Below are positions 12,734-54,964 of a DNA stretch of 55,775 nt, piece by piece. Source of the DNA: Bathymodiolus platifrons methanotrophic gill symbiont. Lineage in GTDB: Bacteria; Pseudomonadota; Gammaproteobacteria; Methylococcales; Methylomonadaceae. The stretch lies in assembly GCF_002189065.1 (NCBI RefSeq), contig NZ_BDMN01000021.1, forward strand, positions 1-55,775. The letters run 5' to 3'. A program made the position numbers and the translations under genes. The notes under the pieces were generated by a model. That model was not told the origin of the DNA. It saw nothing but the letters and a program-made list of their open reading frames with translations, and did not search any database. Each line of letters opens with the position of its first letter. Within the stretch, counting starts at the first letter, position 1.

Positions 12734-13059
12734 TGACAGACAACATCGTCTGGATGGACTTCAATGATGCGCCAGAACAAGGCATCGCTGTGCGAGAATC
12801 ATTTGATGCGCAGGATCTAAAAACACAACTCATTGGACGTTTACCGGAAGCACTTGCTTGTTTGTTCCCTAATGGAAAAACACGCAGCAATCAATTTTTC
12901 ATTGGTGATCTTCAAGGCAATACAGGTAAAAGCCTGGTGGTGGATCTGCAAGGACAAAAGGCTGGCATGTGGATCGATTTCGCAACCAATTCGGGGAGTC
13001 GCTATTTTTGCGAAAGCTTGTTTTGGGCATCCCAGCCCAAGCAAGCAGCAAAAACTTAA
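12733..13059 (+). pseudogene. Truncated first copy of the primase gene start
   Basis: ATG 12733 starts the native primase reading (TDNIVWMDFNDAPEQG) for 86 codons up to FATN at 12990. It then runs into repeat copy C and stops after a foreign tail (SGSRYFCESLF...). The 252 bp at 12739-12990 are repeated exactly at 13303-13554 in the intact gene, so this is a stub created by the insertion. Confidence 0.85.
12739..12990 (+). repeat. 252-bp direct repeat flanking copy C, left member
   Basis: Identical to 13303-13554 by eye, with mismatches immediately outside on both sides. It duplicates the 5' part of the primase gene around an inserted 294-bp repeat. Confidence 0.9.
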
Positions 13060-13285
13060 CGCGACCACTTATGCCTCCGGCGGCCCCGATTCGTCCTCGT
13101 CACCTCGTCCCGACCCAACAAGGGGTCGGAACATAGGCTCCAAATGACTTGACGCCGTGTCGGATGGCCTTTTATTTTGTCTCCACCTTCGCTAACGCTC
13201 AGACTCCGACAAAACAACGGCCCTACGGCTATCGCGGACTAAAAATCATCACTTCGCTTAGGCTACGTTTCCCTGATTTTCAGCG
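12992..13285 (+). repeat. 294-bp structured repeat, copy C
   Basis: Full-length copy in the same orientation as the primase, with the same 5' hairpin, central hairpin and 3' hairpin as copy A. It is followed by a 17-base tail (13286-13302) that supplies GAGGG and a TTG start codon for the second primase copy. Confidence 0.92.
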
Positions 13286-23648: not shown

Positions 23649-23942
23649 CGGGGAGTCGCTATTTTTGCGAAAGTTTGTTTTGGGCATCCCAGCCCAAGCA
23701 AGCAGCAAAAACTTAACGCGACCACTTATGCCTCCGGCGGCCCCGATTCGTCCTCGTCACCTCGTCCCGACCCAACAAGGGGTCGGAACATAGGCTCCAA
23801 ATGACTTGACGCCGTGTCGGATGGCCTTTTATTTTGTCTCCACCTTCGCTAACGCTCAGACTCCGACAAAATAACGGCCCTACGGCTATCGCGGACTAAA
23901 AATCATCACTTCGCTTAGGCTCCGTTTCCCTGATTTTCAGCG
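23649..23942 (+). repeat. 294-bp structured repeat, copy E
   Basis: Full-length copy at the portal/protease overlap, flanked by GAGAA on the left and ATAGAAC on the right, so any target duplication is only about 3-4 bp. It differs from D at a few positions (AAAGTTTG, GGCTCCG) and lies only 372 bp behind it. Confidence 0.92.
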
Positions 23943-24744
23943 ATAGAACAGAGCAACGGGCGAACCGTGGGCAATAACCGAGGGCGCACTGCAGACGATA
24001 ATTGAAGTTGCCGCTCGTGAAAATGATTCACCACAAGCCGTTGCTGCCCGTTTGGGACGAGATCTCAATAACAGCTATGTGAGTCAGGAGCGAGATGGTG
24101 TTGCCATCCTTCCTGTGGTCGGGCCACTTTTTCGTTATGCCAATTTGTTTACGGCAGTAAGCGGTGCTTCCAGTTATGAAATTTTGGCGAAAGACTTTAC
24201 TTCGGCACTAGAGAACCCAGATATCAAAGGCATTGTTTTGGATATTGATTCTCCAGGTGGTGAGGTCAACGGCTGCGCTGAGTTTGCCAACATGATTTAT
24301 GAGGCACGAGGGATAAAACCCATCATCGCATATGCTTCAGGTGATGCCGCATCCGGGGCTTATTGGATTGCATCAGCCTGTGATCAGATCATTGTTTCTG
24401 AAACATCGGCACTGGGATCTATCGGTGTGGTGGCGGTTTATAAATCCAGAGATGAGCAAACTGCTCAGGCTACTGAGATTGTCTCGTCACAAAGTCCTAA
24501 TAAACGGTTGGACCCTGAAAGCGATGAGGGTCGTTCACGCTTGCAATCACGTATTGACACCATGGCGCAGGTTTTTATCGAGAACGTTGCCAGGAATCGA
24601 GGTGTTGACCCACCTAAAGTGATCAAAGACTTCGGAGCCGGTGATGTGTTGATTGGCAAGAAGGCGGTACACAGTGGGCTGGCAGATAACACTGGATCAC
24701 TGGAGAAAACGATAACTAATATCCCTGATAGTAAACCTAACAAT

Positions 24745-30083: not shown

Positions 30084-30798
30084 ATCTTTATTACCGCCTA
30101 ATGCTATTGCTCAAGAAAGAATACTTGAAGAGGTAGTGGGTCAAGGGACTGATTTACCGATTCCCATCCGCGATCTTTGGAAACCAGAATCCTGCCCAGC
30201 AGAATTGTTGCCTTGGCTAGCATGGGCGCTTTCAGTTGATGAATGGGATAGTGATTGGCCTGACTTAATTAAACGCTCAGTCATTGAGCAAAGTGTTGCT
30301 ATTCACAGAAAAAAAGGAACAGTTCATTCGGTAAGACGAGCGTTAGAAATTCTTGGTGTACAGGTTGAACTTCGTGAATGGTTCGAACAAAAAGGCGAAC
30401 CACATACTTTTTCATTGACGGCTTGGGCTGGTGAAAATTATCGCGCTGATGGTGAGCCACTTTTAACGCCGCACTATTACGCAGCATTACAGCGATCAGT
30501 CAACGCCGTAAAGCCGGTACGTTCTCATTACAGTTTTAAAGTCGGAGCTCGGTTTTGTCGGGACCTCGGCGTGGCTGTACTGATGGGAACATCTTTAAGT
30601 TTGCGACGAGAGTTTGAAGCGAAACAAGGTTCCATCACCGCATCGATGGGAATGATATCCGCATCATTAATCAAGTCACTGATGTTGGCTAGAAATAACA
30701 TCCGTCCTGTGGTCCAGGGATATTTAAGCGTATCAGCACCCGTGGCCGTGGTGACACAAAGAACATTCACTCTTGTAAGAGTATCGATGGAGATCTAA
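30076..30798 (+). CDS. Tail protein I
   Basis: About 240 aa from ATG 30076. SLLPPNAIAQERILEEV, PIRDLWKPESCPAELLPWLAWALSVDEWDSDW and KKGTVHSVRRALEILG are hallmarks of P2 gpI (tail tip/baseplate). The C-terminal 70 residues are less conserved. Confidence 0.9.
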   Translation: MSESLLPPNAIAQERILEEVVGQGTDLPIPIRDLWKPESCPAELLPWLAWALSVDEWDSDWPDLIKRSVIEQSVAIHRKKGTVHSVRRALEILGVQVELREWFEQKGEPHTFSLTAWAGENYRADGEPLLTPHYYAALQRSVNAVKPVRSHYSFKVGARFCRDLGVAVLMGTSLSLRREFEAKQGSITASMGMISASLIKSLMLARNNIRPVVQGYLSVSAPVAVVTQRTFTLVRVSMEI

Positions 30799-31742
30799 TG
30801 AGTAGCACATTAATACCCGTGATTACACAGGTAGGTTTGCAGGCTGTATTTAACGCCAGCAACTCAGGCCTGCAAGCAGAGATCACTGAAATTGCGCTGG
30901 GTGACCAAGCTTGGGAACCAGATAGTTTTGCCACAGCATTAAAGAACGAACGTCGTCGGGTACCGATCAGCAATGGTGAACGCATCGCGCCGACGCAAAT
31001 TCATATTACTGCCGTAGAGGATGGTACTCAGTTGGAATACTGGGTGCGTGAAATTGGTTTTTATCTTGCCGATGGATCACTGCTTGCTATTTGGAGTCAT
31101 AAAACACAAGCGCTAGCCTATAAAGCTGCTGGTGTGGATTTGCTACTGGCTTTTGATATGGCACTGGCGGCATTACCCGCAGAAAGTGTCACCGTCGTTG
31201 GAACCGGTGGCGTTAGTTTACCTCCAGCGACAACGACCAAACTCGGTGTCATGCGTTTTGCAACAACCACAGAATCAAAGGCAGGAGCCGTCACTGATGA
31301 GGCAGTCACTCCCAAGGGTATGCGTTCTCATGGGGATGCGCGTTACTCAAAATTAGCACACAAGCACGATGCGGCCTATGCCGCTTTGTCACATCAACAT
31401 ACGTGGAGCGAAGTTAACGAAAAACCTGCTTCGTTCCCACCATCGGCGCATAACCATGATGATCGTTATGTTGTTTTATCCGGTGCGCCACGGGCGGTAT
31501 ATGTCGATGTCCGGTCTACCGGCAATACATCGAGTTCATCAACGGCTTTGAACTGGGCATTAGCCATTCACCCTAACAGTGGTTTTAACGAAAATGATCA
31601 CATTATTGTTCTTTATCGTAATCGCTATGTCCGTGGTACAGGCAACGGTAGTGCCTGGTGGACGGATGACAGAACAACAACATTAATTAAAGCCGGTAGT
31701 TGGCGCGCTATCGCTACTAGCAACAATGGTTACTGGGGATAG
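30798..31742 (+). CDS. Tail fibre protein (gpH-like)
   Basis: 314 aa. The N-terminal TQVGLQAVFNASNSGLQAEITEIALGDQAW is the conserved fibre-attachment region. It is followed by ATTTKLGVMRFATTTESKAG and histidine-rich repeats (HKHDAAYAALSHQHTW, HNHDDRYV) that bind metal in trimeric fibres. The C-terminus (NWALAIHPNSGFNENDHIIVLYR) is the receptor-binding end. Much shorter than P2 H, so it may be a specialised host-range variant. Confidence 0.85.
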   Translation: MSSTLIPVITQVGLQAVFNASNSGLQAEITEIALGDQAWEPDSFATALKNERRRVPISNGERIAPTQIHITAVEDGTQLEYWVREIGFYLADGSLLAIWSHKTQALAYKAAGVDLLLAFDMALAALPAESVTVVGTGGVSLPPATTTKLGVMRFATTTESKAGAVTDEAVTPKGMRSHGDARYSKLAHKHDAAYAALSHQHTWSEVNEKPASFPPSAHNHDDRYVVLSGAPRAVYVDVRSTGNTSSSSTALNWALAIHPNSGFNENDHIIVLYRNRYVRGTGNGSAWWTDDRTTTLIKAGSWRAIATSNNGYWG

Positions 31743-31745
31743 ACA

Positions 31746-32448
31746 ATGAATGTGATTTTAATTTTTAACAAGTTTACCGATGCCTACATTGGAATGACCT
31801 ATGGCACTGATGCCATGTCATTGACCGAGGCAGGCTGTGATGACACACACTTTAAATATAAAACCGTTGTTCTTGATCCCGATACAGAAGTCTGGGAAGG
31901 CGATTTTAATACAGGGCAAATAAAACCGATATCACAACAAACTACAGTGATTTCGGAGACTGAACTGGATGCGGATTGTCAGGACAAAGTTTTTCGCCAG
32001 TATCGTTATTACCACCAGCTCAATGTTGTTTATGGCGTGTTAGATAACTTGATCACTGCCGCTGCACTGGATGAGACCTTATTGGCCGATTACAGAAAAA
32101 TGCGTACCTACATTCAACCGCTGAAAATCAGGGAAACGGAGCCTAAGCGAAGTGATGATTTTTAGTCCGCGATAGCCGTAGGGCCGTTGTTTTGTCGGAG
32201 TCTGAGCGTTAGATCGCGTTAAGTTTTTGCTGCTTGCTTGGGCTGGGATGCCCAAAACAAGCGTTCGCAAAAATAGCGACTCCCCGCAAATTGTTGATAA
32301 CAACGAACGTTATAAAGAAGCTTACGCATTACAAGAAGGCTACGAGTACCTGGATAAACAGGCAGAACGTGATCGACTCAATGCCCAGCTTGAAGGTGGC
32401 CTACATGAAGTGATGGGGAGAACGACCCATCCGGGTACGCCACAGTGA
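31746..32448 (+). pseudogene. Tail-fibre-associated hypothetical, interrupted by repeat copy F
   Basis: The coding frame runs from ATG 31746 to MRTYIQP at about 32118. It is broken by copy F and continues with QIVDNNERYKEAYALQEGYEYLDKQAERD to TGA at 32448. Joining the flanks keeps the frame, implying about 180 native residues. I do not recognise it; the place behind the fibre suggests fibre assembly or a structural accessory. As written, it stops at 32165 after reading into the repeat. Confidence 0.7.
32119..32286 (-). repeat. 294-bp repeat, internally deleted copy F (inverted)
   Basis: Reverse-orientation copy of 168 bp. It keeps both ends (CGGGGAGTCGC and TTTTCAGCG) and lacks 126 internal bp between AACTTAACGCGA and TCTAACGCTC. 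The GCGTTCGC change in the 5' hairpin is unique to this copy. Confidence 0.9.
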
Positions 32449-32930
32449 TATGGACGAGCCATCACTTATCACCACCATTAGCGCAAAAGCTCCGCAATGA
32501 TATACAGACATTAGACAAAGCCTACTGGCGTGATCGTTCTCGATTTAATCCGAATCTTGGTTTGGATAACACAGCAGGCCAATATTACTCCTGCGGTAAG
32601 GTTTCTTGCCCGGAGCACCTGTCAAATATGATCAGTCTCATCGCGCCGGAATATACCGGTCGTGAGCTTGATGACTGGGTCATTAACTGGACGCCTGAAG
32701 GTGGTTATATGCCACCGCATATCGATAACGAAGGCTATCTGGAATTTACCGTATTAAGCCTGCAGTCAGGTAGTGGCTCTTTTATCTGGTATCACAATAA
32801 CGATACCAGCAAGCCTGAACACATTGCCGATAAGGCAGGCCAAATTATTCACATTGATGACATCACACAGATTCACGCTGTGGCTCCTGCCACGATGGAC
32901 CGTTATGTGATTATTTTTCTCTACAGGTAA
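32445..32930 (+). CDS. 2OG-Fe(II) oxygenase-like protein
   Basis: 161 aa from GTG 32445, overlapping the previous TGA. His92-x-Asp94 (PPHIDNEG), His144 (TQIHAV) and Arg153 (MDRYVIIF) have the order and spacing of the iron- and 2-oxoglutarate-binding residues of double-stranded beta-helix dioxygenases. Substrate is unknown. Inside a tail operon it might hydroxylate fibre or sheath residues or modify a host factor. Confidence 0.6.
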   Translation: MIWTSHHLSPPLAQKLRNDIQTLDKAYWRDRSRFNPNLGLDNTAGQYYSCGKVSCPEHLSNMISLIAPEYTGRELDDWVINWTPEGGYMPPHIDNEGYLEFTVLSLQSGSGSFIWYHNNDTSKPEHIADKAGQIIHIDDITQIHAVAPATMDRYVIIFLYR

Positions 32931-32937
32931 CCTCACT

Positions 32938-33441
32938 ATGACTCAACTTAAACCCGCACTGTTAAGTGCGACGCAGTCTGCTGCGCTGCTGGCGGCTACT
33001 AATGATCCTTTGAATGTCTTTAAAAGCAGTCATGGCGTGTCACGTCGCATGGGGATCAATGGCGTTAATGCTTTATCGGAATATGAATTTCTGAAGCGTT
33101 GGAATTTTCCGGCTGCACTTAAGCAAGTTTATGAACAACAGGTGCCTGCTGCATTACAACAAACCAGTAATGAAGTATGGCTACTGCGTTTTCCCATCGG
33201 TGGTTTTCTGGATCAATACTGCGCGAGCAAGCCGTTGTTTAATTGCCTGTCTATTCCACTTAATGATGGTGGGAAGTTTACTATCTGGGAAAACGGTGCG
33301 CCCGTTACTCATACCAATATAGCCGGAGATGGCTACCTGTTTTCATTGGCTGATTATCATCAGGTACAGCCAACTACACAGGATGATGTGTATCTCTGTT
33401 TTCTGTTTCTTAATCATATCGAGGTAATGAACAATGCCTGA
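32938..33441 (+). CDS. Hypothetical protein, possible beta-helix fold
   Basis: 167 aa. The C-terminal half (FLDQYCASKPLFNCLSIPLNDGGKFTIWENG, GDGYLFSLADYHQVQPTTQDDVYLCFLFLNH) alternates strands like a cupin or 2OG-oxygenase barrel, but no HxD pair is evident. It is tightly linked to the oxygenase-like gene and overlaps the sheath start by 8 bp. Function unknown. Confidence 0.5.
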   Translation: MTQLKPALLSATQSAALLAATNDPLNVFKSSHGVSRRMGINGVNALSEYEFLKRWNFPAALKQVYEQQVPAALQQTSNEVWLLRFPIGGFLDQYCASKPLFNCLSIPLNDGGKFTIWENGAPVTHTNIAGDGYLFSLADYHQVQPTTQDDVYLCFLFLNHIEVMNNA

Positions 33442-34608
33442 ACAATTTTTACATGGCGTGGAAGTCGTTGAGATTGATAGCGGCCCACGTCCGATCCAAA
33501 CCGTTCGATCCAGTGTGATTGGACTGATTGGTACAGCCTCTAATGGCGGATGCCACTAAATTCCCAATCAATACGCCAGTGCTTATTGCCGGTCGGCGTG
33601 GTGAAGCCGCACCTCTAGGTATTAGCGGAACCTTGCCTGCAGCCATCGATGATATTTTTGATCAAGCTGGAGCGATGATCGTTGTTGTTCGAGTCGAAGA
33701 TGGTGTTAGTGAAGCCGACACGTTGTCGAATATTATTGGTGGTGTCGATCCTGACACCGGGCAATATCAAGGTGTACAGGCCTTTCTTGCGGCAGAAAGT
33801 GAAGTTCATCTGACACCCAGAATACTAATTGCACCTGAGTTCACACAAAACACCGCATTGGTCAGTGAAATGCTTGGTATTGCCGAGCGACTACGAGCTG
33901 TGATTATCGCTGATGGTCCTAATACGCAGGATACCGATGCCATTACATATCGTGGAAATTTCGGTAGTCCCAGAGTCTTTCTTGTTGACCCATGGGTGCG
34001 TGTCTGGGACACGCAATCGGATGGTGAAGTTATTCGACCAGCCAGCGCACGCATTGCTGGGTTAATTGCAAAAAGTGATAACGAACGCGGATTCTGGTGG
34101 TCGCCCAGTAATCGAGAGATTAACGGTATTACCGGCACGGCGCGTTCTATCGATTTTTCCTTGGGTGATACCAATGCGCGGGCTAATTATCTTAATGAAA
34201 ATGAGGTGGCAACCATTATTCGCAAAGATGGCTTCCGCCTCTGGGGTAATCGCAGTTGCAGTGCCGATCCCAAGTGGGCCTTTTTATCAGTGCGCCGTAC
34301 AGCAGACATGATCAATGAAAGTTTGCTAAGAGCACACATTGTGGGCGGTGGATCGCAATATCACCAAGACGTATCTGGAAGATGTCCTTGAAGGTGTGAA
34401 TGCCTATTTGCGGCACCTGCGAACCGTCGGCGCCATCATCAATGGCCAAGCATGGGCAGATCCTGAACTCAATACTATCGACCAACTCTCCCAGGGGAAA
34501 GTCTATATCGATTTTGATTTTACGCCGCCGTACCCGGCAGAACACATCACCTTCCGCAGCCATCTGGTGAATGACTATCTGACCGAAGTGCTGACGAGCA
34601 CTACTTAA
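33434..34608 (+). pseudogene. Contractile tail sheath protein, two one-base insertions
   Basis: The three frame segments together give a P2 FI-type sheath of about 390 aa (HGVEVVEIDSGPRPIQTVRSSVIGLIGTA; ADATKFPINTPVLIAGRRGEAAPLG; FLVDPWVRVWD; RTADMINESLLRAH; MWAVDRNITKTYLEDVLEGVNAYLR). One extra G at 33545-33546 and one extra T at 34339-34340 break it. Both lie at doubled bases. The sheath drives contraction, so a tail could not form unless these are sequencing errors. Confidence 0.9.
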
Positions 34609-40794: not shown

Positions 40795-41247
40795 ATGCGC
40801 CACGTTACAGAGGAAGGCATCAATCTGATCAAACGATTTGAAGGATTCTCGTCATCTGTTTATATCTGCCCGGCAGGATACCCTACGATTGGTTATGGAC
40901 ATGTAGTTCGTGATGATGAAAATCATCTGTTTGCTGAAGGTATTAATAAGGAAGAATGCGAAGAATTACTCCGGCAAGATGTTCATTGGGCCGAGCGCGG
41001 TGTTCTCAAGTTGATTGATGTGCCACTGACAGAGGGCCAGTTTGATTCATTGGTATCTTTTACCTTTAACCTGGGGTCTGGCGCGTTGCAGCGATCCACC
41101 TTGCGTCGTAAAGTAAATCGAGAAGAACATGGTGATGTGCCTGTTCAATTGAAACGATGGGTTTGGGCTGGTGGACGGAAGTTAAAGGGACTTAAGATGA
41201 GGCGTAATGCTGAAGCTAATATATATAGTCAGGAAACATTCACATAA
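40795..41247 (+). CDS. Endolysin, GH24 T4-type lysozyme
   Basis: 150 aa. Glu16, Cys25 and Thr31 are spaced E-x8-C-x5-T (RFEGFSSSVYIC...T), followed by IGYGH, the active site of T4-type lysozymes. There is no signal-anchor, so export needs the holin. Its end overlaps the convergent CD-NTase gene by 19 bp, marking the phage/defence border. Confidence 0.92.
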   Translation: MRHVTEEGINLIKRFEGFSSSVYICPAGYPTIGYGHVVRDDENHLFAEGINKEECEELLRQDVHWAERGVLKLIDVPLTEGQFDSLVSFTFNLGSGALQRSTLRRKVNREEHGDVPVQLKRWVWAGGRKLKGLKMRRNAEANIYSQETFT

Positions 41248-42566
41248 AACCGGCCACTTTTTCCAAGACATACACCTTTTTTTATATCCACAGCAAAACA
41301 CTCTACCCAATGCGTGCCTTTGTATTCGGTATGTTCCCAAATATCAGATCCAACCTGATTAATATCACCACGTAAAGAACGAGCAAGGCGGGCAACCAAA
41401 CCAGTATTCACTACTTGCCATTTAATTCTAATATGTTGAGAAAACGTATGATTTGCAGAAAAATGTATCCATGTATCAGGTTTCAATCTTGGCCCATCAG
41501 ATGTGTAATTCCCTAAAAAACCACCTTCTTTTGAAGAATGTAGAGAAGCATTAATATTTAAGCTGCCAACTCTTTGAATTGGCCATGGTGGCACTATCAC
41601 ATGACTCGTATCTTCAGAGGCAATAATAGTTGATCCAGATGACCTAGATTCGATTATTACACTTTTAGCAAAATCACCACCAAAGACTTTACGCCATTTC
41701 AATATACATTCTTCTCTATCCTGTTCTGCTATCGCATCCTCAATCCATTCCCTATATCGCTGAATACAATTTCTAAAGTTGTCATATTTATTCTGATCCC
41801 AGTGTCGATTAAAGTTTTCAGACGGCATGCTGGGATTCTGAACGGTAGGCATAATTGGATTTTCTTGAAGATAGTCATTTAACCGATTAAATATGGTTTG
41901 TAATGACGTTGATGTATCACTGAAATTATTTGATAGGTTGTCAAATAGATGAATACGATTACCTAGAAGAGTAGTGAGCAGTACAGATTTGGCTGAAAAT
42001 GTCTTTTTATGGTCTCTTAAATATTTAAATAGTCTGACAACCTTTATCAAGTATCCATCAGTTTCCCTGGTTTTATCAGCAAACCATTCAGAATAGCCAT
42101 CAGGGTTAGTTTGCTCTTCAGAGTTATCCTGGCGATTTAATATCCATTCTGTTTCTCCATCCCAAACACTATCTCGCCTAATGCAAGGAATAACATCAAG
42201 GTGAAAATCTCCAGCATAATCCAGAGTGACACATCTTGTATTCCGACTAACCATATCCTTATATGTATTACTGGCCATAAAGCAGTGGTACAAGGTATCA
42301 ATATAATCTTTGGGTTGCCAATCTTCATTTTCATTGAGGAAGAACACTAGATCGGCATCAAAGTCATCGTTTCCTACGGGTCTAATTATTGTTTTATGAG
42401 CCCATGATCCTTGAGGAGTAGTTTCAATGAATAAATCTTCAAATTCATCTAGCTGTTTAACAAATTCGGAGATCGTATCGACACGTTGTTTTAATGTGTC
42501 GATTCTACTTTGATTGAGATTGACAGTATCTTTTAGAAAGTTTGTTAAATAGTGGTCAAGCTTCAT
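41229..42566 (-). CDS. CD-NTase (CBASS cyclic-nucleotide synthase)
   Basis: 445 aa. GS at 53-54 and Asp70-x-Asp72 (FDADLVFF), plus Asp124 (FHLDVIP), form the polymerase-beta catalytic set of SMODS nucleotidyltransferases. The C-terminal WVECFAVDIKKGVCLGKSGRFYV resembles the AGS-C sensor domain. The enzyme would make a cyclic di- or trinucleotide on phage infection. Its start overlaps the end of the patatin gene by 11 bp, forming a two-gene (type I) CBASS. The exact clade and product are not readable. Confidence 0.85.
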   Translation of the reverse strand: MKLDHYLTNFLKDTVNLNQSRIDTLKQRVDTISEFVKQLDEFEDLFIETTPQGSWAHKTIIRPVGNDDFDADLVFFLNENEDWQPKDYIDTLYHCFMASNTYKDMVSRNTRCVTLDYAGDFHLDVIPCIRRDSVWDGETEWILNRQDNSEEQTNPDGYSEWFADKTRETDGYLIKVVRLFKYLRDHKKTFSAKSVLLTTLLGNRIHLFDNLSNNFSDTSTSLQTIFNRLNDYLQENPIMPTVQNPSMPSENFNRHWDQNKYDNFRNCIQRYREWIEDAIAEQDREECILKWRKVFGGDFAKSVIIESRSSGSTIIASEDTSHVIVPPWPIQRVGSLNINASLHSSKEGGFLGNYTSDGPRLKPDTWIHFSANHTFSQHIRIKWQVVNTGLVARLARSLRGDINQVGSDIWEHTEYKGTHWVECFAVDIKKGVCLGKSGRFYVNVS

Positions 42567-44343: not shown

Positions 44344-47073
44344 TCACCATCCATTAGTCATCAACTCCGTAAAATCTCGACGAGAAAGAACATCTGAACA
44401 ATCTCTCCAGTCTTTTTCAGATGGACTCATGCTGGTGTTGTAACGTAGGTCAAAGCCATTGGCTTCTTTCTGAGCGTCGATGTAGTCATCCATTTTTTCA
44501 CCTAAGGTTTCAATATCTTCAATCCATTCATCTTTGATTGTGTCGGGGAGTGAGCCAAATAAACTGTAGCGGTCACGCATTCGTTCCGATAATCGCTCAT
44601 AGACTTTTTCATCAACCGTTTGCTCATTGACAAGATTAAGCATGTCCACTTTTTCACGCACCTGACCAAAGCGTTTAATTCGACCAATACGCTGTTCCAG
44701 CTTTGTTGGATTCCACGGTAGATCAATGTTTATTAACGTGCCGAGTGTTTGTAAGTTTAAGCCTTCACAGGCTGCGTCGGTGGCAACCATGATAGTGAGT
44801 TCATGTTCTGCCACCATGTTTTTAAGTGTTTCACGTTCAATGTTAACGCTATCACCTTTTTGATATAAACGGCTTCGACCAGCACCAGCATATAAACCAA
44901 CTGCTTGATCTGGGTAGCGTTCAGCAAGCGAGTCTGCCAACCATTTAGCCGTATCGTAATATTGACTGAATATTATGATGCCATAACTAAGCCATTTCTC
45001 TTGTTCGAGGTAGTGAACAACTGCCTGTAATTTTGGGTCTTCAGTAATTTTTTCCAGTCGAGAAATCATACGTTCAAGAACAGCTTTTTCTTCCTGATTA
45101 TCAACTGCTAATACAACTTCTTGTTCATCGTTTTCTTCTTGAAGTGTACGGCCCTCAAGTAACTTTCTTGCGGTACTTAATCCTGCTGCAATACTGGAGC
45201 AAATTCTCTGTTCCATTAGATTTTTCATAAAGCCACTACCTTTACCGCTTTTGGCAAGTGCTTTACCGAAGTTACGAGCTTCAGCGTAGGCTTGACGAAA
45301 ATCTTCGCTGGTTCTGAGTGCATTCCCTTCAAATAGGCTATTAAATTTATGTACCTCTTTAGCAAGCTGTCGGTCAGGGTGGAGATCAACACCAATGCGA
45401 GGCAATAAATCGGCGTCTTCTAATGAAGCTCGCTTGCGTAAAACAATGTGCCTGACGAATGGGTTTTCACGCTGGAAGAAACTGGCACCTGAAATTTCAC
45501 GATCTAATTCATCCTCAAGGTATTCGCGTGAATCATCAGTTAAATCGGTTAGTGGGCGTGTTATTTCCCATTCGGCATTGGCCTCTAAGTCTTGACGAAT
45601 AGCACTGAACAAGCGTCGAGCAAAAGGCTCTTGCGTCGAATCAACCATAGGCAATGGTGACCTTAATAATTCCCAGGCAAATGATGGTTCATTCACTTCC
45701 TGTTCACCTGAGAGTATGGGGAGAACTTCTTGGGGACGATGCCATTTGGCTAAATCGTTTCCCAGTACAAAGTTACCAACGCCTTGATGCAAAATGCCGA
45801 CTAAATCCCAAAGGTCTTCTGGCTTGGTTTGGATGGGCGTAGCCGTCCCTAATATGACATGATCAGAACGAGCGGCGACTTCTCGCATAAATGATAGTAG
45901 TTCATTGTGTGTGCCTGCATCTTTTCCAAAACCCTGACGACTTCGAGCTTTATGGGCTTCATCCAAAATGGTGAGGCCATAGCGCAAACCAAGGAGGTGC
46001 TGTTTTTCGAGTGAGTCACGCATCATTAAACCGGTAGAAACAATGCCAATACGCAATGGGCATTTAGCAATGTGTTCATGTCCGGTGGGGGAGATAATTC
46101 GGTTATCTGGGTCTAGCCAAGCCTTCTTCTGGGTATGCCAACGTGCACAAGGGATACCCAGTTTGTCTATCATTTCTGTCTGCCATTGTTCACACAATGT
46201 TGCTGGGGCAAAGATAATAACCGGTTTGCGTTTTTTCTTTTCTTTGTCACTTAATAAACAAAGCGTTAGAGCGGCAGTACCCATGGATAAAGTTTTTCCT
46301 AAACCTACCTCATCAGCGAGTAGCAAACGGACAATGCCGTGATTATGGTAGTGACGAACACATTCACTGACAAAGCCTTGCTGCCAGGGTCTCAATGCAA
46401 AACCTTGGCGATACAACGGTGACTCGATCAATGCGGCAGGTGCTAGATCATCGTCTTCATCAATTTCATCAAAGATAATTTCACGCCGGTAACCACGACG
46501 TTTTACCTCGCGAATAACGGCATCGGGTAACGAGCGAGCGGCATTCCATAAGAATTCAAATTCCTCTTCAATCCATGCGACACCTTCAGCTGATTCATCT
46601 TCCCACAAAATTTCATAGTGACGTTGCCAACCGCTACTGGTTTCATTCATTGAACCGATGAATCCAAGCTTACGACCATCCTCAAGTTCTATCACACCGG
46701 CCTTGCCATGAAGGAAGCCACAGATACTATCTGGCGCAACACGAATTACCTGACCATGTTTTGCCAAAAAACTATCAAGACGACGATATCGGTCTCTATT
46801 GAGGAGCGCCTCTGTTTCCAGATCATGCTCATTCCAACGGCCTATCATTTTGGATTCACGTAGTTGGGCAATTTTGAGGTCAGCAGGATGTATATCTACG
46901 TTGCAGACAATTTTTACATCAGGGATAGACTCTAGTAACTCATTGGCCACTTCAAATAACGAGCTGGTGAAATAGCCAGCAATGCGTTTGTAACTACGAG
47001 CACCTTTAAGATGTTCGAGCAAAAAACTGTTATCCAAACGGTGTGTGCGTGATGAGAACCTCCTTATCGTCAT
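44344..47073 (-). CDS. PLD-domain SNF2-type helicase, defence system
   Basis: 909 aa. The N-terminal PLD-like domain has one HxK motif (FLHGKAGVIELED...GSMNETSSG). The SNF2 helicase follows: LADEVGLGKTLSMG (I), LDEAHKAR (II), LGTATPIQT (III) and LEQRIGRIKRFGQ (VI). It would translocate on DNA and couple to the methyltransferase and ATPase next to it. Stop is 3 bp past the Mrr-like alternative start; 6 bp after the methyltransferase. Confidence 0.88.
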   Translation of the reverse strand: MTIRRFSSRTHRLDNSFLLEHLKGARSYKRIAGYFTSSLFEVANELLESIPDVKIVCNVDIHPADLKIAQLRESKMIGRWNEHDLETEALLNRDRYRRLDSFLAKHGQVIRVAPDSICGFLHGKAGVIELEDGRKLGFIGSMNETSSGWQRHYEILWEDESAEGVAWIEEEFEFLWNAARSLPDAVIREVKRRGYRREIIFDEIDEDDDLAPAALIESPLYRQGFALRPWQQGFVSECVRHYHNHGIVRLLLADEVGLGKTLSMGTAALTLCLLSDKEKKKRKPVIIFAPATLCEQWQTEMIDKLGIPCARWHTQKKAWLDPDNRIISPTGHEHIAKCPLRIGIVSTGLMMRDSLEKQHLLGLRYGLTILDEAHKARSRQGFGKDAGTHNELLSFMREVAARSDHVILGTATPIQTKPEDLWDLVGILHQGVGNFVLGNDLAKWHRPQEVLPILSGEQEVNEPSFAWELLRSPLPMVDSTQEPFARRLFSAIRQDLEANAEWEITRPLTDLTDDSREYLEDELDREISGASFFQRENPFVRHIVLRKRASLEDADLLPRIGVDLHPDRQLAKEVHKFNSLFEGNALRTSEDFRQAYAEARNFGKALAKSGKGSGFMKNLMEQRICSSIAAGLSTARKLLEGRTLQEENDEQEVVLAVDNQEEKAVLERMISRLEKITEDPKLQAVVHYLEQEKWLSYGIIIFSQYYDTAKWLADSLAERYPDQAVGLYAGAGRSRLYQKGDSVNIERETLKNMVAEHELTIMVATDAACEGLNLQTLGTLINIDLPWNPTKLEQRIGRIKRFGQVREKVDMLNLVNEQTVDEKVYERLSERMRDRYSLFGSLPDTIKDEWIEDIETLGEKMDDYIDAQKEANGFDLRYNTSMSPSEKDWRDCSDVLSRRDFTELMTNGW

Positions 47074-47079
47074 TACTGA

Positions 47080-50000
47080 TTATTCCCCTAAAGCTCGCAT
47101 ATTGCGTAGACGTGCGCTCAGCACCTCGGCAACTTCTCGTACCGTTTCATCCATTGCTTTTCTTTCAATAAAGCTAAGCATGTCGATAAGTAGATGGCGG
47201 GTTTCCATAAAGTCGGGTAACTCGGCCTGTAGTTGGCTAATAATCACCTGAGGGTCTGTTTCAGCGATAAGTTGCTGCAAACCAATAATGATGTGACCTA
47301 ACCAGCTTGCCCCCAACTCGGTACTTTCAGTCAGGTCACGAGATTCAAATTTTGTAATCTGTTTCAGGTGTGCCTTATTGGCCGCCATGCTTCCCATCAC
47401 TCGACCATAGTCTTCAACACGAAACGCCTTGGCAAAGTTTTGGTAGTTATCCAGTTTTGTAGCTCCAGTGGTTTCCATATCCATCATGCGTAAATAAAAG
47501 CGTTGAATACCATTTAATTTTTGCCAGGTATCGGCTTTCAGTCCTTCGGGGACCAATAGACTGTTTGCCGCCTCTGCTGCTTGCTGCACGATCTCATCAA
47601 CAACGGTAACTTCACCGCTAGCGCGAGGCTTTAGCGCGAAAGCCGTCACATCTTCACCACCAATTTGTGTGTAGGCAGTCAACACTTTTAACGCCGCAGC
47701 ATAACCTGCCATTTGCAAATCGGAGTCATTAAATACAGGCTCGCCCATTTTATCTTTAACCTCGTCATTAAGGTGCATCATGGTTTCAATTTGGTGTTTA
47801 ACCTCTGCACGAACCGCTGGTAGTAAACGCTGTTTGAATCCTGCGTTTTCACCAGCAGGGCGTTTGCGTAGCATGAGAATAACGGTACCTTGAACATAAC
47901 CACCTTTTTTAAGTTCAGATGTTGTCTCAGTGGCGATATACCAGGCAGCCACGACTTGTAGGCCTGCAGCCCAGAATATGCCGATCATGTCCGACCAAAC
48001 ACCAGTGTCTTGATGGGTGAACATGACACTCTGCATACCATTGTCTGGCATGTGCTCTGCCATGGCAGAGTAGGCATTAACCATGCCTTTGCGGAAATCA
48101 TCACCAGATCCTTTAACGGCAAGGGCTCTTCTTGAATCCCAAGTCCAATCTGCAAACTCTTTTGCAGGTTTTTTTCTAAGCCAGGCAATAAAAAACTCTG
48201 TTATCTCATGGTAATGGACTGCATCAGCATAAGGCGGATCAGTTACCCAAATATCAGAAATGCGTGTTATTGATTCTGCGCTAGAAGTCTCAATTAGGAC
48301 ATTAACTTTTGATTGAAAACTTCTTTCTTTTTCAGGAAAGGTTTTAAAGAAAATGTTTTCAGTTAATATATAGTTCGAGTATTGCCCATAGTTTAAATTA
48401 GTATTTAAAGCTTGATTTGTGAAGACATGGACTGGACCGCCGTCCCATTTTATACTAGTACCCCAACCACACAGTTTAGAGTTGAAATCCAAGCAATTTG
48501 CGATTCCTAATAATGTTTCCGCACTATTACTTAAGCTGCCTAAAGCTGCAAAGAAATATATTTGACGAGCATTAAAAAGGTGATGCCAGTACGTCCATCC
48601 ACGTTCTCTAGTCGGTTGGTCAGTGTTATACCCTGATTCAATAGCCATATCTGGTACTAAGCCATCTTTCTGCCATTGGTCAATGTTTTTAAACACTAGA
48701 TTGTTGACTATGGCTTCCCGCTCTAAATCTTTTTCTGTAACAGTTGAAAAAAAAGTTTCCTCTCGGGATTTTCCTATACTTTCTTTTGTGATCCACTGGA
48801 CGGCATATAACCTTTCTTGAAAAATATCATCTAATTGAGGTTTAAAATCTGTTTTATTCCATTTTCGTAGTCTATTAGCATTGTTTCCCTCTGAATCTGT
48901 ATAGTCACCTCTTAGTGTTTTAATCGGAGTACGGTACGTTTTATTGCCAAGCTCATAAACAAGATGACCATCTTGAACAGTTCCCTGTTCAGCTAGTTTC
49001 ATTTCTTCCTTAGATACACCGATGACAACCTCAATATCAAATCGCTTTTCATTATGATTGGGTATAAGCTTCGCGATAATATTTCTCATCTTTGATATTG
49101 CCCAATTAGAAGATAGAGGCACTAGCCAACCTGTTTCTGGACATTTAGTTTCTATACAGTAAAGATATGCTTTTGCTCGGTTGCCATATTCATCGTGCTC
49201 AATTTTTAATTGAGTTATTTCATCATCAAGTTTTTGAAGAATACTCCGTTGCTCTTCTGCTATCTGAGTGCGGTGCTCTTTACTAGCACCAACAATATTG
49301 ACTGCTCCCCAAGTAAGCATGCATGCAATAGGGTTAAGATCAGAGGCATTTACATCACAACCAATTCTTGCTGCTTCAAATGGTATTGAGCCACCACCAC
49401 TAAAAGTATCACCAACAACTGGAGTGTGCCCGTATCTTAAAACACCTAGCTGTTGGGTTAATTCACTAATGGATTCGGCCTTAACGCCAAAATCAGATAG
49501 GTGCGAATTAACGTCAATCCAAATATGTTCATATAGCCAGTCTTGATCGACTTCTTCAGGACGTTTGCAAAGTAATGAGCGCTCTTCATAGCTTTCAACT
49601 GTTTGAAGTGTTGCTTCAAATAACTTCAGTTTGTCTGTCTGAGATATATCTCTACGCCACCGAATATTAATCCCTTGAGCATCACTGTCGAGAGGGAATG
49701 TCAGTGATGAAACCTCAACGAAAACAGGATCATCAATCTTAATATTGTGCGTGAAATAATCCCATGGATTATGTAGTTCAATTTTACATGCGATATCTTT
49801 AGGCTTTATGGAGTTTTGGATCAGCGCACGTTTAGATAAACTTTCACTATCGAATGCCATTAACTTTTCAAATATCTCTAAATCTTTTTCAGTATCTTCT
49901 GTTTGTGGTAACAGAGTACCAAGCACAATAGCTCTAACAAGAATAAGTGGTTTACGTCCTTTCCAGTAGGAACCTACCGAAGGCAATGTTTGCGCAGGCC

Positions 50001-50106
50001 CTGCTTTTCTTTCTCTTTGCGCCTCGCAAGAAACTTTCTTTGCTGGAAATACAGCCTCAATCAGCGCAGGGGCATTCTGCAGGGCTAGTGGTTTTAATTC
50101 TGTCAT
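47080..50106 (-). CDS. DUF1156 DNA methyltransferase, defence-associated
   Basis: 1008 aa. VVGDTFSGGGSIPFEAARIGCDVNASDLNPIAC is the SAM-binding motif I and WVTDPPYADAVHYHEITEFF the DPPY catalytic motif. The latter sits about 370 residues further on, with an insert between as in the DUF1156 group. The substrate is likely adenine N6 or cytosine N4 of self DNA. The start ATG overlapped the DUF3780 stop before the IS1-type insertion separated them. Confidence 0.88.
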   Translation of the reverse strand: MTELKPLALQNAPALIEAVFPAKKVSCEAQRERKAGPAQTLPSVGSYWKGRKPLILVRAIVLGTLLPQTEDTEKDLEIFEKLMAFDSESLSKRALIQNSIKPKDIACKIELHNPWDYFTHNIKIDDPVFVEVSSLTFPLDSDAQGINIRWRRDISQTDKLKLFEATLQTVESYEERSLLCKRPEEVDQDWLYEHIWIDVNSHLSDFGVKAESISELTQQLGVLRYGHTPVVGDTFSGGGSIPFEAARIGCDVNASDLNPIACMLTWGAVNIVGASKEHRTQIAEEQRSILQKLDDEITQLKIEHDEYGNRAKAYLYCIETKCPETGWLVPLSSNWAISKMRNIIAKLIPNHNEKRFDIEVVIGVSKEEMKLAEQGTVQDGHLVYELGNKTYRTPIKTLRGDYTDSEGNNANRLRKWNKTDFKPQLDDIFQERLYAVQWITKESIGKSREETFFSTVTEKDLEREAIVNNLVFKNIDQWQKDGLVPDMAIESGYNTDQPTRERGWTYWHHLFNARQIYFFAALGSLSNSAETLLGIANCLDFNSKLCGWGTSIKWDGGPVHVFTNQALNTNLNYGQYSNYILTENIFFKTFPEKERSFQSKVNVLIETSSAESITRISDIWVTDPPYADAVHYHEITEFFIAWLRKKPAKEFADWTWDSRRALAVKGSGDDFRKGMVNAYSAMAEHMPDNGMQSVMFTHQDTGVWSDMIGIFWAAGLQVVAAWYIATETTSELKKGGYVQGTVILMLRKRPAGENAGFKQRLLPAVRAEVKHQIETMMHLNDEVKDKMGEPVFNDSDLQMAGYAAALKVLTAYTQIGGEDVTAFALKPRASGEVTVVDEIVQQAAEAANSLLVPEGLKADTWQKLNGIQRFYLRMMDMETTGATKLDNYQNFAKAFRVEDYGRVMGSMAANKAHLKQITKFESRDLTESTELGASWLGHIIIGLQQLIAETDPQVIISQLQAELPDFMETRHLLIDMLSFIERKAMDETVREVAEVLSARLRNMRALGE

Positions 50107-50124
50107 AAGGTCTCATCACCAAAT

Positions 50125-50976
50125 GGTGGTGGGTTAAATCTGTTATTAGGCATGAATATCTCGTCCAAATTCGACTTTATTAATTAATAGTCCAATGACA
50201 ATATCATGCATTTGTTCTATTTTGGAAAAACAGATTGTTCGACGCGTTAAGCGTTTAATCCATGTTCTAAAATTTAGGTTTTTTCGTTCAATTTTTTGAG
50301 TGTTTTGTTTGCCTATTTCATGTTCATTTACATCTAAGTTTCGCTCATAAGCCCCCCAGTCATCTGTATAATATCTGCTTATTTCAAAAGGAGTCAGTAA
50401 GGCTTTTAGCTCTTTGAAAACATCATCTTTACGCTTGCCAAATACATAAGCAATGACTGTATTAGTCGCATGATCAACAGCATGCCATAACCATCGCTGA
50501 TTCGACTTTTTACCTACAAATGACCATTGTTCATCAATCTCAACTTCTTCGCAAACAAGCTCCAGCCGAACGTCTAAAGGTGTTTCTGATTTTTGAGATA
50601 GAAAAATAGGATTTACCTGTACAAGGCTATCTTCTTTGCTTTTCAGGATGCTGATGACTGTATTTTTATTGATTTTCAGAACCCGTGCGGTGTCTCTAAT
50701 ACCACTGCTATTAATAGCCATTTCGACGACTTTTTCTTGGACTCCAGGCACACATGCATTATAGCGATAGTACAGCATAAATGTTTGAGTTTGGCAGGCA
50801 CTATTTTTGCAGCGATACCGCTGTATATTTTGAGCATTCTTTCCTGATTTCATGATAGTGCTACAGCGACAATTTGGGCAACTTACTTCTTGATAACATT
50901 TCATTCGAGGAATTATGATGTAAACCTTTTACTTCTCCTAATTATTTAAGTGAAATAACAGATTTAACCCACTACC
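50125..50976 (-). mobile_element. IS1-family insertion sequence, 852 bp
   Basis: Terminal inverted repeats of about 23 bp (50125-50147 and 50954-50976, core GTGGGTTAAATCTGTTATT, one visible mismatch) bracket one transposase gene. The 8-bp direct repeat CACCAAAT occurs at 50117-50124 and 50977-50984. The element is complete and recent by appearance. Confidence 0.95.
50146..50904 (-). CDS. IS1-family transposase (single ORF)
   Basis: 252 aa. N-terminal zinc finger (CPNC...CKNSAC) and helix-turn-helix (GIRDTARVLKINKNTVISILK) are followed by the DDE core (EIDEQWSFVGKKSNQRWLWHAVDH, YYTDDWGAY, KIERKNLNFRTWIKRLTRRTICFSK). Unlike classical IS1 it needs no frameshift between insA and insB. It is transcribed with the defence genes. 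Confidence 0.93.
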   Translation of the reverse strand: MKCYQEVSCPNCRCSTIMKSGKNAQNIQRYRCKNSACQTQTFMLYYRYNACVPGVQEKVVEMAINSSGIRDTARVLKINKNTVISILKSKEDSLVQVNPIFLSQKSETPLDVRLELVCEEVEIDEQWSFVGKKSNQRWLWHAVDHATNTVIAYVFGKRKDDVFKELKALLTPFEISRYYTDDWGAYERNLDVNEHEIGKQNTQKIERKNLNFRTWIKRLTRRTICFSKIEQMHDIVIGLLINKVEFGRDIHA

Positions 50977-51586
50977 CACCAAATAAGTCCAGCATAGGTA
51001 AGCGGGGATCTTGATATTTATTAGCTACAATTTTTCGGCTGCGTGGTTTTAATAAGTCGCTTTGAGCAACATCGCCCAAGGCATGCCTGAGTGCTAAACG
51101 CCAACCTTTCTCACCATCTTTCATTCCACCGGTATTCATAGCAGTCATGCCAAATAGCCACCAGCGTTCTTCGGGGCGTAGTGCTAGCCAATTACGCACA
51201 GCGACTGGTGTTTTATCCATATCCATATCTTCAACAGCCCATGCCAATACACATAGTTCTTTGCCTAAAAGCCGATCTACCATGTTGTCTCCAACTTTCC
51301 AGGAAGAGGGCTTAACGCTGTGTGCCTTCAAGCGAGCGTTAAAAGTGCGTTGTACTTCGCTACGAATTTTTGTCCAGCGTGGGCGTGCTAGGAGCACGCG
51401 ATCAATAACAGCAAATTCATCACTTTGGGCTTGTAAGCCTAAATACTCACTGATTTGAACTTTGCCGCCATTACCCTTTGGAATAGTGACCTTAAAATGA
51501 TGCGGATCACTCGTTGCAGGTACACCAAAGCCCAACGTTGGTTGTGTAGACGCTTTTCTTTGTTTGGTTGGTGTAACCTCAGCCAT
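50972..51586 (-). CDS. DUF3780 protein, defence-associated, C-terminus altered by IS1
   Basis: 204 aa. ASTQPTLGFGVPATSDPHHFKVTIPKGNGGKVQISEYLGL and MTAMNTGGMKDGEKGWRLALRHALGD are typical of the DUF3780 proteins found beside DUF499 and DUF1156 genes. The IS1-type element replaced the last residues: the native end LDLFGDETL, with stop overlapping the next ATG, became LDLFGG with the stop inside the IS end. The rest is intact, so it may still work. Confidence 0.85.
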   Translation of the reverse strand: MAEVTPTKQRKASTQPTLGFGVPATSDPHHFKVTIPKGNGGKVQISEYLGLQAQSDEFAVIDRVLLARPRWTKIRSEVQRTFNARLKAHSVKPSSWKVGDNMVDRLLGKELCVLAWAVEDMDMDKTPVAVRNWLALRPEERWWLFGMTAMNTGGMKDGEKGWRLALRHALGDVAQSDLLKPRSRKIVANKYQDPRLPMLDLFGG

Positions 51587-51589
51587 TAT

Positions 51590-54500
51590 TTATTCCTCTT
51601 GTGCAATATCGCCGGGTTGTAATTCCATACCGACTAATTTGGCAAATTCCTTTGCCTCAAAACCATTTTCAAAATCAATACCATCAGCAATCATAATGGC
51701 GACTTGTGCATCATCTTCTTGTAATACCTCACGAAGGCTATTGACCGTTCCTTCAATCATGGCCGCAGTAATTTGACGTTCTTGAAAACGCACTGTTACG
51801 GTTTTCTCACCTTCTCCAATCTCAATTCGAACACCTTTAAATTTTGTTGCTACTTGTTCACGGAAATGATTTATCACACCGTAAACTCTATCGGTGGTAT
51901 CCAGAGCAACACGTTTCCCACTGTTAAGGCGAGCGGGTTTGGCTTCATCAATTTGAATCGTTTTATCGCCACTGTGTGGGATTTGGAAATCAGCCGTTTT
52001 TGTTGCCTCACCCGCTTTTGCGTAGACCAGCAGCCTAGTTGCATCCGAACCTATTTCAAATGGTTGTTCATAGGTTGTTCCGTCTTTTGGATTTGAACCA
52101 TCCAATGTGTATAGCATTTCTGCCTGAGGCGTACATTGCAAAGTCACTTTACGTTTATCTGCGGCAGGTTCGACTTGATGACGAATTTTTAATTCTGCAA
52201 TCCAGCGGGTGGGTGATCCACTCTCATATTTTCCACTTGGATCCTTCACCATAAAATAAAGTGTACCTTCTGAAGTGCTAAAGTTTTCAAGGTCTTCCAC
52301 TTGTGAATCAGTTTCTAAAACTTCAGGCGTAGTCGAGTAATAGATAACAGGGCTTTCGCCAGAATTTCTTGGTGTTAAGCTGACAATGGATTCGCCGGTA
52401 TCAGAATGTGAACTCAGTAGTGATATATTGACACTGGTTTTTTCCTGAGGGAATGGTCCTTTTTCTATATAGCCATCTTCGCCTAAACGCCAACGACCTT
52501 GTTTTAATGCTTCGGTTTTCAATGTATCCATACCGCCATTACCGGGCATCCATGGCCAAATTGAGTTGCACTTAGCTCTACTTACAACATCTTTCCATGG
52601 AGTACGACGATTGTCTTTACCTGAAGGCCAAAGCTCTGCTTCAGCCATTGCAAAATATTGGATGAATTTATCTTTCAAGTCTGAAGCCAGTTTGTAATTA
52701 GCGCGTGGACTAGCAAGCAAGTTTTCGATTTGTACTTCAGCTGATTGATCACCTTCACCAACTTTGAGGCCATTGTCGATAGTTACACGAACCAGTTTCT
52801 GAGTGTTATCAATGTCATCCAAACCGGGAAAATAGATGCTGTTATATGCAGCAGATAAAGCTTTGGTGAAACGTTCCTCAGATTCTTCAAGCCTATCTCT
52901 GGCTTCTTCAAAAAGTGTATCGCCAGGTTTTAAGCGTTTGTCAATTTGCTCAATGGCATAGAGATCACGCAGACGGTCTTCAACCGCATCAGCCATAAGG
53001 CTATCTTGGCCAGTCAGCACCAGTAAATTATTTTTCTCTTGCTGGAACTCGAAGAAGTTAGTTAATTCACTCGGTGGAACTTTGCCATCTGGTTTGATAA
53101 CGATGAGAACTCGTGGTCCAGTCAACCTTAGTTCATCCATTCGAGGTAGAATTTGCACCTCTTGATATGTGTTCCGACGTACTGGTTGTAAAATACCTGT
53201 CAGACGATTAATTAGCGCCTGATCAATTTTTGGCTGTGGCACTTCTTTAGCATTGCGTTCAATTTGCCGTGATAAATTTTCGGTCTCTTTTATAAAGAGG
53301 CGTTGTTCTTCTCGGTGCAAGTACCAGGCTTGCTCCCGTAATTTCTGTATCGCATCAAGGAATTCATCCGCTTTTCGGTTTGGTGCTGCCAAGAACTCAA
53401 TGACTTCGCTTTCAGAAAGACCGATTCGTCCACCAACAGCGCGTGATAATGAAGAGGCAAGTAGTAGTGTCATGACCTGTCTGGATGCATCACTATCAAT
53501 TTCATCATCAAGTGTTTCGGCAATGGCACTACCTTTATCTGCAATGTCGCGAGTAACCGCAGGCACTAACTTAGGTGCGATACGTTCAATTTCATCTTTG
53601 ACCTGTTCATCGTTTAGATCAAGATGCTGTGTGCCGATTAGAAATACGTCATCCACTTCTCGTTGGGCCACACTTTTCAGCAGACGAGCTGTAAACTGCA
53701 TCAATCCCCGTGTTTGCCGGAAACCTTCATTTTCTTTGAAGAGTGCAACAAGATGCTTAAAGGATGGATGGAATGGATATGTTTCCCGAATTTGTTCTGC
53801 TATTTGTTCAATGCTTGAGGCGATAATGTAACCGCCATCTTCTGCCTTTTTAATTTGCTGTGCATATTCTTCAGCAATCTCATTGATGACATGCTCATCG
53901 GGTAGTTCATCTATTAGACGCTTTTTGAGAATTTCATAAATCTCATTACCAGCTAACGAAACAGGGGTTATTGTCATCGCTTGACGACGTGTTTCTTGCT
54001 GAAGATTGGAAATCGCTTCAGTTAATGCTTTGGTCTGTGCGTTATAACTTCCAGACAGGTTAGCTATAACAATACAGCAGTTAGGTAATTCAAGAGCTGC
54101 ACTCATTAGTGCGGCTAGGCTATATACCACCATATTTGCCAAGGTACCTTGGCCAAGTACCTGTGTGCTTGCATTGTCTAAATAGGGAGGGAGTTCATCT
54201 AGCATTATTAGCGTTGGGGTGTCGCCAATGATGTCTTTCCATTTTTGTTGGTCGACTGCTTTTGGTCCATTAATCCAATAAGGTTTAATCTCTTCTTCCG
54301 CACCCAGTTGAGTCGCGATCTCTCCCCATATGTGATTGTCAGGATTATTTCTACCATTGAAGGCTGCAATTCGAGCTCCTTCAAAATCAAGACGGCTATT
54401 TAAATCTTCCGGCAAGACACCTGGCCTGAGTTCAGCATGACGAGCAAGGAGACCAAGCGCGATCATCATGTGGGTTTTACCGCCGCCCATGGCTTGAGTC

Positions 54501-54903: not shown

Positions 54904-54928
54904 TAGATTCTCCAAGAATGCCTGCAAA

Positions 54929-54964
54929 TGTACTGCAATATACTGTACTACTGTTTGCAGTACA
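54929..54964 (-). promoter_or_regulatory. Operator of the defence operon
   Basis: Arms TGTACTGCAA (54929-54938) and TTGCAGTACA (54955-54964) are a perfect 10-bp inverted repeat. TACTG half-sites recur at 54931, 54941 and 54949, with CAGTA at 54958. The array sits 26 bases upstream of the RHH start codon, where a RHH dimer array would block transcription. Confidence 0.75.

Follow-up and report, generated by a model that had tools for sequence, protein, structure and literature searches.

What do two small, oxygenase-like genes do between the tail fibre and the tail sheath of a prophage? The question is raised by a window of 55,775 nucleotides (NZ_BDMN01000021.1) from the Bathymodiolus platifrons methanotrophic gill symbiont, which corresponds to the viral contig IMGVR_UViG_2781126804_000001 and, in a draft genome of 4.0 Mb, to contig 21. 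Its prophage has a terminase and a portal of lambda type beside P2-type tail genes, and thus joins lambda-type packaging to a P2-type contractile tail. The tail cluster includes baseplate genes W (PF04965) and J (PF04865), gene I (PF09684), the fibre (PF12571), a gene similar to PHIKZ136 of phage phiKZ, ORF1, ORF2, the sheath, the tube (PF04985), the tape measure and the hub gpD.

All the cassette features of the window lie on the forward strand. The fibre gene (30798..31742, 314 aa) has an N-terminal Phage_tail_fib domain (PF12571, E 3.5e-14) and matches the tail fiber family phrog_3737 (E 1.9e-53). ORF1 (32445..32930) starts with GTG and encodes 161 aa, and ORF2 (32938..33441) starts with ATG and encodes 167 aa; they are homologues of PHIKZ137 and PHIKZ138, respectively. 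On the 3′ side of ORF2, the sheath gene (33434..34608; Phage_sheath_1, E 2.1e-24) is spread over three frames. An ORF check and the Pfam matches to Phage_tail_fib and Phage_sheath_1 bear out the ORF coordinates and the setting between fibre and sheath given in a preliminary description of this DNA.

ORF1 as a Putative Fe(II)/2-Oxoglutarate Oxygenase

The preliminary description had read His92-x-Asp94, His144 and Arg153 of ORF1 as a 2OG-Fe(II) oxygenase signature, and these residues are indeed found at the positions given and are conserved in homologues. Among 39 homologues less than 90% identical (mean pairwise identity 35%), H92, D94 and R153 are present in all and H144 in 38, which argues that the signature has not arisen by chance. 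A narrower set of 27 homologues likewise has the first three residues invariant, with H144 in 26. The putative 2OG-binding R153 sits at +9 from H144 and is kept in 39 of 39, the same spacing of the Arg after the distal His as in PHD2. The sole exception at H144 among the 39 is L012, with an Arg at that position. In this contig, close to L010, the region 2048-3059 also has ORF2 in pieces; either both parts have been degraded together or the assembly is poor.

An AF2 model of ORF1 (pLDDT 95.0, pTM 0.90) gave its best VIA-align score with PHD2 (Z 17.1, rmsd 2.7, 148 residues aligned), and Foldseek matched it to 446 PDB chains at E ≤ 0.001 (best E 2.4e-7), the best 50 of the 446 being all 2OG oxygenases or AlkB. 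Its structural neighbours include PHD2, P. putida P4H, pseudomonal iron uptake factor C and a Shewanella PKHD oxygenase. A prediction lacking a double-stranded beta-helix or a metal site had been named beforehand as the outcome that would refute the oxygenase reading; structure prediction of ORF1 met with neither lack. At the level of profiles, comparison of the ORF1 family with the PDB returned AlkBH8 (E 2.7e-4), a viral P4H, a PKHD hydroxylase and AlkBH6, with E values from 2.7e-4 to 0.8. The window protein itself matched no Pfam family, and PF13640 (2OG-FeII_Oxy_3) was detected in 21 of the 27 homologues under a lenient limit (E ≤ 1, best E 2e-5). Four of the 27 also matched PHROG 61, which groups 2OG-Fe(II) oxygenases of marine phages. 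A match of ORF1 to a Vibrio phage protein (E 0.3, half of the query covered) was rejected.

ORF1 is also matched by PHROG 2297 (E 2.3e-9), a family labelled 'DNA endonuclease'. A Pfam search of ORF1 and its homologues returned no nuclease domain, and one phage record annotates the gene as a 2OG-Fe II oxygenase. The endonuclease label, borne for example by NC_004629.1, is probably a misannotation propagated through a family of 2OG oxygenases, and its correction would concern many Pseudomonas phage records. Altogether, the case for ORF1 as a predicted Fe(II)/2OG oxygenase of the PHD2/P4H type is strong in sequence and in the modelled fold, and its catalysis is inferred.

ORF2, a Distant Paralogue with a Degenerate Site

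For the second gene, it had been suggested that the fold is shared and the metal site absent. The likeness in fold is upheld: the ORF2 family aligns end to end with the ORF1 family in hhalign (probability 96.1, E 3.2e-9), and a profile built on ORF1 sequences alone reaches the ORF2 proteins of the P2-like group (best E 1.1e-6), the reverse search giving nothing better than E 19. The AF2 model of ORF2 (pLDDT 91.9) shares its structural neighbours with that of ORF1 and has its best Z of 16.0 with PHD2 (rmsd 2.4, 144 aligned) and its best Foldseek match in P. putida P4H, and among predicted viral proteins the closest is a PhiPA3 family member.

On the other hand, the loss of the metal site is only partial, two of the three ligand positions remaining as D92 (39 of 40 scorable sequences) and H141 (39 of 39). 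The position of the first His is occupied by F in 29 of 40 scorable sequences, and otherwise by Q (5), H (2), L (2), T (1) or R (1), the ORF2 proteins of L022 and L027 having a His there. With the first His in 2 of 40, the family does not meet the complete HxD...H triad of an active 2OG oxygenase. The 2OG Arg is mostly lost as well: the aligned residue is Q, D, R, G or others, and of 75 scorable rows, redundant ones included, 10 have an R.

Between the window and L008, ORF2 shows a dN/dS of 0.06 at 84% identity and ORF1 one of 0.11 at 66% identity, most other pairs being saturated at synonymous sites. Such strong purifying selection on ORF2 indicates that it is not a decaying copy. As judged from sequence and modelling, ORF2 is a distant paralogue of ORF1 with the same predicted fold, a double-stranded beta-helix, and a degenerate site; it is probably a non-catalytic, stable partner of ORF1, the complex itself being inferred. 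A different arrangement is seen at 4664-6480 of L022, which has the order ORF1-ORF2-ORF1′, with a second oxygenase gene of active type (full HxD...H plus Arg) after ORF2.

A Gene Cassette of Fixed Order

Searching viral contigs for close relatives with one protein at a time recovered nothing beyond the window itself, so that alignments were needed, and an ORF2 scan with a 3-sequence alignment added only one phiKZ-like phage. Homologues were collected with alignments and from phage records, and each locus was then searched with profiles of the four parts. The 53 rows obtained stand for 52 distinct contigs or records, L063 and L019 being one contig; some of the 52 are near-identical, with 39 ORF1 sequences at <90% identity.

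Throughout this set the order is fixed as fibre tip, PHIKZ136-like gene, ORF1 and ORF2. Both ORF1 and ORF2 are present in 52 of 52 and the PHIKZ136-like gene in 51, the remaining contig beginning inside the cassette. The tip was found upstream by HMM profile in 47. Of the five contigs without a profile match, L039, L075 and L076 start at the cassette, L007 is rearranged, and L086 has a tip that is readable by eye. A Marinobacterium prophage is among the carriers, and the backbones involved are unrelated: lambda-type terminase and portal with a P2-type tail, phiKZ, an Otagovirus and QdP_Psa3. A separate ORF2 scan returned the same 8 contigs of the P2-like group as the ORF1 scan. Moreover, queries with PHIKZ137, PHIKZ138 and the PHIKZ136-like protein each match 72 Pseudomonas phage records in the phage collection, the three lists not having been compared.

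The PHIKZ136-like gene, ORF1 and ORF2 follow one another with overlapping or almost adjoining stop and start codons, and are therefore probably translated together. Distances between cassette parts are correlated (Mantel r 0.85 for ORF1-ORF2, 0.53 for ORF1-tip). Among the window's own relatives, the oxygenase gene is absent from all but the window's own genome (1 of 151 genomes). In a sample of 369 gammaproteobacterial genomes, ORF1, ORF2 and the PHIKZ136-like gene each occur in that one genome only, so that co-occurrence cannot be assessed in bacteria. The tip was seen in three of the 369; two of these are weak, have internal stops and were missed by the tip profile.

The setting had been taken as the place of fibre chaperones or modifiers. 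The placement stands, although a chaperone role falls more readily to the PHIKZ136-like gene, a separate gene between the fibre and ORF1. All 20 PHIKZ136-like proteins searched fall in PHROG 13209, of unknown function, and no Pfam chaperone family was found for them at E ≤ 0.1. A Peptidase_M48 match in one of the 20 (E 0.0048, below the cut-off) was rejected. The phiKZ record annotates PHIKZ129-135 as structural or tail tip and has no such note for PHIKZ136-138, as would be expected if these three were assembly or modifying factors. The PHIKZ136-like protein is probably a fibre-tip assembly factor, its role as a chaperone being an inference.

The Fibre Tip Common to P2-like and phiKZ-like Phages

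About 67 C-terminal residues make up the only detectable likeness between the P2-like and the phiKZ-like fibres before the cassette. In hhalign, P2-like tips and phiKZ-like fibre C-termini aligned with probability 95.4 and E 2e-8, compared with 0.1-0.4 for three control segments taken from elsewhere in these phiKZ-like fibres. The set behind this comparison was curated: 8 of 54 candidate C-termini were excluded by inspection as non-tips, and 11 of the remaining 46, from phiKZ-type loci and without [G/S]NG, were set aside (mostly PHIKZ135-type, plus one of L015). Some rows were kept through an NG elsewhere or through position, and are not aligned with the [G/S]NG motif.

In the window, the tip domain common to phiKZ-type fibres spans 31491..31718 (HMM E 3e-20, the window tip being part of the training set), with a near-invariant Asn-Gly at 31644-31649 and a near-invariant Trp at 31701-31703. 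Across 59 non-redundant tips found by profile, with a mean identity of only 21%, the Asn is kept in 57 of 58 scorable sequences, and the Gly and the Trp in every scorable one (57 and 54, respectively). The invariance of Asn-Gly is inflated by selection, since the profile was trained on motif-bearing tips and rewards the motif. Independent support for the link comes from sequence groups that were detected only through ORF2, have upstream DNA and played no part in the training of the tip profile (L060, L064, L070, L071, L073, L074, the L077 group, L083, L084, L086 and L087): 10 of these 11 carry the tip, with best E values from 5e-14 to 1e-5.

In phiKZ-type phages, PHIKZ136 is immediately preceded by a gene of PHIKZ135 type that lacks the motif, the motif-bearing fibres being encoded one and two genes further upstream. 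The Pro of a P.G[ST] stretch is frequent in the tip alignment and missing from P2-like tips. BLAST searches of the phage collection gave no match for the window and L016 tips, and only itself for the QdP_Psa3 tip; a sequence search for a solved structural relative of the tip was also negative. At 4908-5458 of L016 there are two tandem stand-alone proteins of 90 aa that are almost pure tip domain, and in Astolliot the tip is carried on a protein of 181 aa.

Proposed Function and Its Alternatives

The likeliest reading, on balance more probable than not, is that ORF1, with ORF2 as its non-catalytic partner and with the PHIKZ136-like protein, hydroxylates the tip of the upstream-encoded fibre during tail assembly, a proposal in which catalysis, complex, chaperone role and substrate are all inferred. 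ORF1 would work in the cytoplasm as an Fe(II)/2-oxoglutarate oxygenase, and its paralogue ORF2 would have no catalytic part; both would act with the PHIKZ136-like protein on the C-terminal tip domain, in which one residue would be hydroxylated as a cytoplasmic maturation step. The choice of the tip as substrate follows from genetic linkage, without activity or complex data. Of the two substrates raised in the preliminary description, tail hydroxylation is still inferred, although the fibre tip held in common strengthens the case considerably, and a host-surface component is without evidence.

Other readings of the same genes have to be weighed. There is a small chance that the oxygenase fold has come to serve as a chaperone or scaffold for the fibre, its metal site being kept for stability and not for catalysis, as could be argued from the adjoining fibre genes and from ORF2, which is as constrained as ORF1 despite its degenerate site. 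Such a role does not account for the full set of ligands and the 2OG Arg at about 35% mean identity, an Arg that, by inference, a merely structural metal would not need. Action on a host protein is also unlikely. The two ORFs would then be late-operon cargo behind the fibre genes and would modify, for instance, a translation factor, as P. putida P4H does with EF-Tu; the structure of that pair (4iw3) is the one that heads the Foldseek matches of ORF2 and is a top match of ORF1, and a host-directed role has been proposed for the 2OG oxygenases of cyanophages (2OG and NtcA; PMC3037559). Cargo would, however, be expected to vary in position, whereas the order is fixed in 52 contigs or records across unrelated phages, the same type of tip is always upstream where upstream DNA is readable, and no cassette-free member exists in the 369 gammaproteobacterial genomes.

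It is quite improbable that the enzyme is AlkB-like and modifies or repairs DNA or RNA, or that it is the nuclease suggested by the label of PHROG 2297. Besides the match to that family, AlkB structures appear in Foldseek and AlkBH8 in the profile search, but prolyl-hydroxylase structures top the VIA-align list, the label is probably a carried-over annotation at odds with the record that names a 2OG-Fe II oxygenase, and neither the link to a fibre tip nor the pair of paralogues would be expected of such an enzyme. Least of all do we expect mere hitch-hiking, in which recombination swaps the whole block together with the fibre tip without any functional link. Fibre regions recombine often, and the correlated distances would also result from block inheritance alone; loss in some lineages would then be expected, and yet no convincing tip without the cassette, nor any oxygenase without the tip, was met where upstream DNA is readable.

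Within the preferred reading, hydroxylation of the fibre tip, the best candidate for the target residue is the near-invariant Asn of [G/S]NG. This is a guess and may well be wrong, resting solely on the fact that, apart from the Trp, no functional side chain of the tip is kept as well as the Asn. More speculative still is the idea of a mobile cassette for fibre-tip maturation, a two-subunit oxygenase whose dead paralogue positions the substrate and which would hydroxylate this Asn in receptor-binding tips that are otherwise hypervariable. If so, an enzymatic protein modification would be needed for host binding, or would tune it, and would be common to P2-like-tailed prophages, phiKZ-like jumbo phages and other Pseudomonas myophages. 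Deamidation readily affects Asn-Gly, and hydroxylation might therefore protect the tip or switch it.

Relation to Known Systems

The closest known counterpart is PHIKZ136-PHIKZ137-PHIKZ138 of phiKZ, the same three genes in the same order behind fibre-type genes, with 28% identity between PHIKZ137 and ORF1, 27% between PHIKZ138 and ORF2, and all ORF1 ligands conserved in PHIKZ137. Unlike the window's prophage, phiKZ is lytic, a jumbo phage that has several paralogous fibres. No function for PHIKZ136-138 was found in print in the open-licence literature. P. putida P4H, PHD2/EGLN1 and the PKHD-type protein of Shewanella (3dkq) resemble ORF1 in predicted fold and ligand layout (Z 16-17), but identity is only about 9-18%, ORF1 is, at 161 aa, shorter than the matched chains, and the genetic setting is another. 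These prolyl hydroxylases are regarded as neighbours of the modelled fold only, in the absence of data on proline hydroxylation.

A catalytic domain paired with a degenerate copy of the same fold is known from the eukaryotic Tpa1/Ofd1/OGFOD1, where a single chain holds both, acts on a ribosomal protein and uses the dead domain to help in substrate handling; ORF1 and ORF2 form a comparable pair encoded by two separate genes. Phage 2OG oxygenases as such are already known, including EGLN3-like proteins in the Phold paper (PMC12774648; also PMC3037559). The marine-phage 2OG-Fe(II) oxygenases (PHROG 61; PMC12774648) belong to the same superfamily as ORF1, but the available passages of PMC12774648 propose no fibre role and describe no paired degenerate paralogue.

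Phages often carry oxygenases, and the literature examined reads them as genes of host metabolism, whereas here one is tied by fixed order to one tip domain across unrelated phages. Neither this tie of an oxygenase to one fibre tip nor the paired degenerate paralogue was found in print among open-licence papers, and open-licence full texts, a scope that leaves out subscription papers and preprints, held nothing on hydroxylation of phage tail fibres. Should the tip be the substrate, an adhesion device would have an enzymatic maturation step, and phage adsorption would hinge on the supply of oxygen, iron and 2-oxoglutarate while the particle is assembled, a possibility directly testable in phiKZ.

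State of the Copy in the Window

The PHIKZ136-like gene of the window is interrupted. Its 5′ part (31746..32165; HMM 31746-32126, E 3e-37), delimited by alignment to the intact gene of L008, runs into an inserted repeat and stops at the stop codon of the repeat, and its 3′ part (32287..32448; HMM 32287-32445, E 1e-16) retains the conserved end GGLHE..G, its stop overlapping the GTG start of ORF1. The MITE-like repeat (32110..32292, the insertion proper being about 32114-32288) is not in L008 and has 78 matching pieces, in about 40 copies, across the window's own genome. Other copies of this short non-coding repeat lie at 1655-1949, 12992-13285 and 23649-23948 of the window, and the copy inside the gene is without the middle part found in them.

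The sheath, in turn, has two frameshifts relative to the intact L034 sheath (tblastn with the latter), due either to decay of the prophage or to assembly errors. With the PHIKZ136-like gene interrupted and the sheath frameshifted, this copy of the cassette is probably defective and may no longer function; for the same reasons, the function is argued from the family and not from the window prophage. An inversion of DNA in the fibre region, suggested by the 5′ part of the PHIKZ136-like gene of L007 on the opposite strand, was discarded: the L007 junction resembles a chimeric fold-back contig, and the window has only small, unconvincing inverted repeats.

Adjoining the prophage tail genes, on the reverse strand, a protein with SMODS and AGS_C domains (41229-42566) is a CBASS-type nucleotidyltransferase. 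Further along the same strand (44344-54988), PLD/SNF2 helicase, DUF1156 and DUF499 proteins resemble a defence island, amid which an IS1 transposase is found at 50146-50904.
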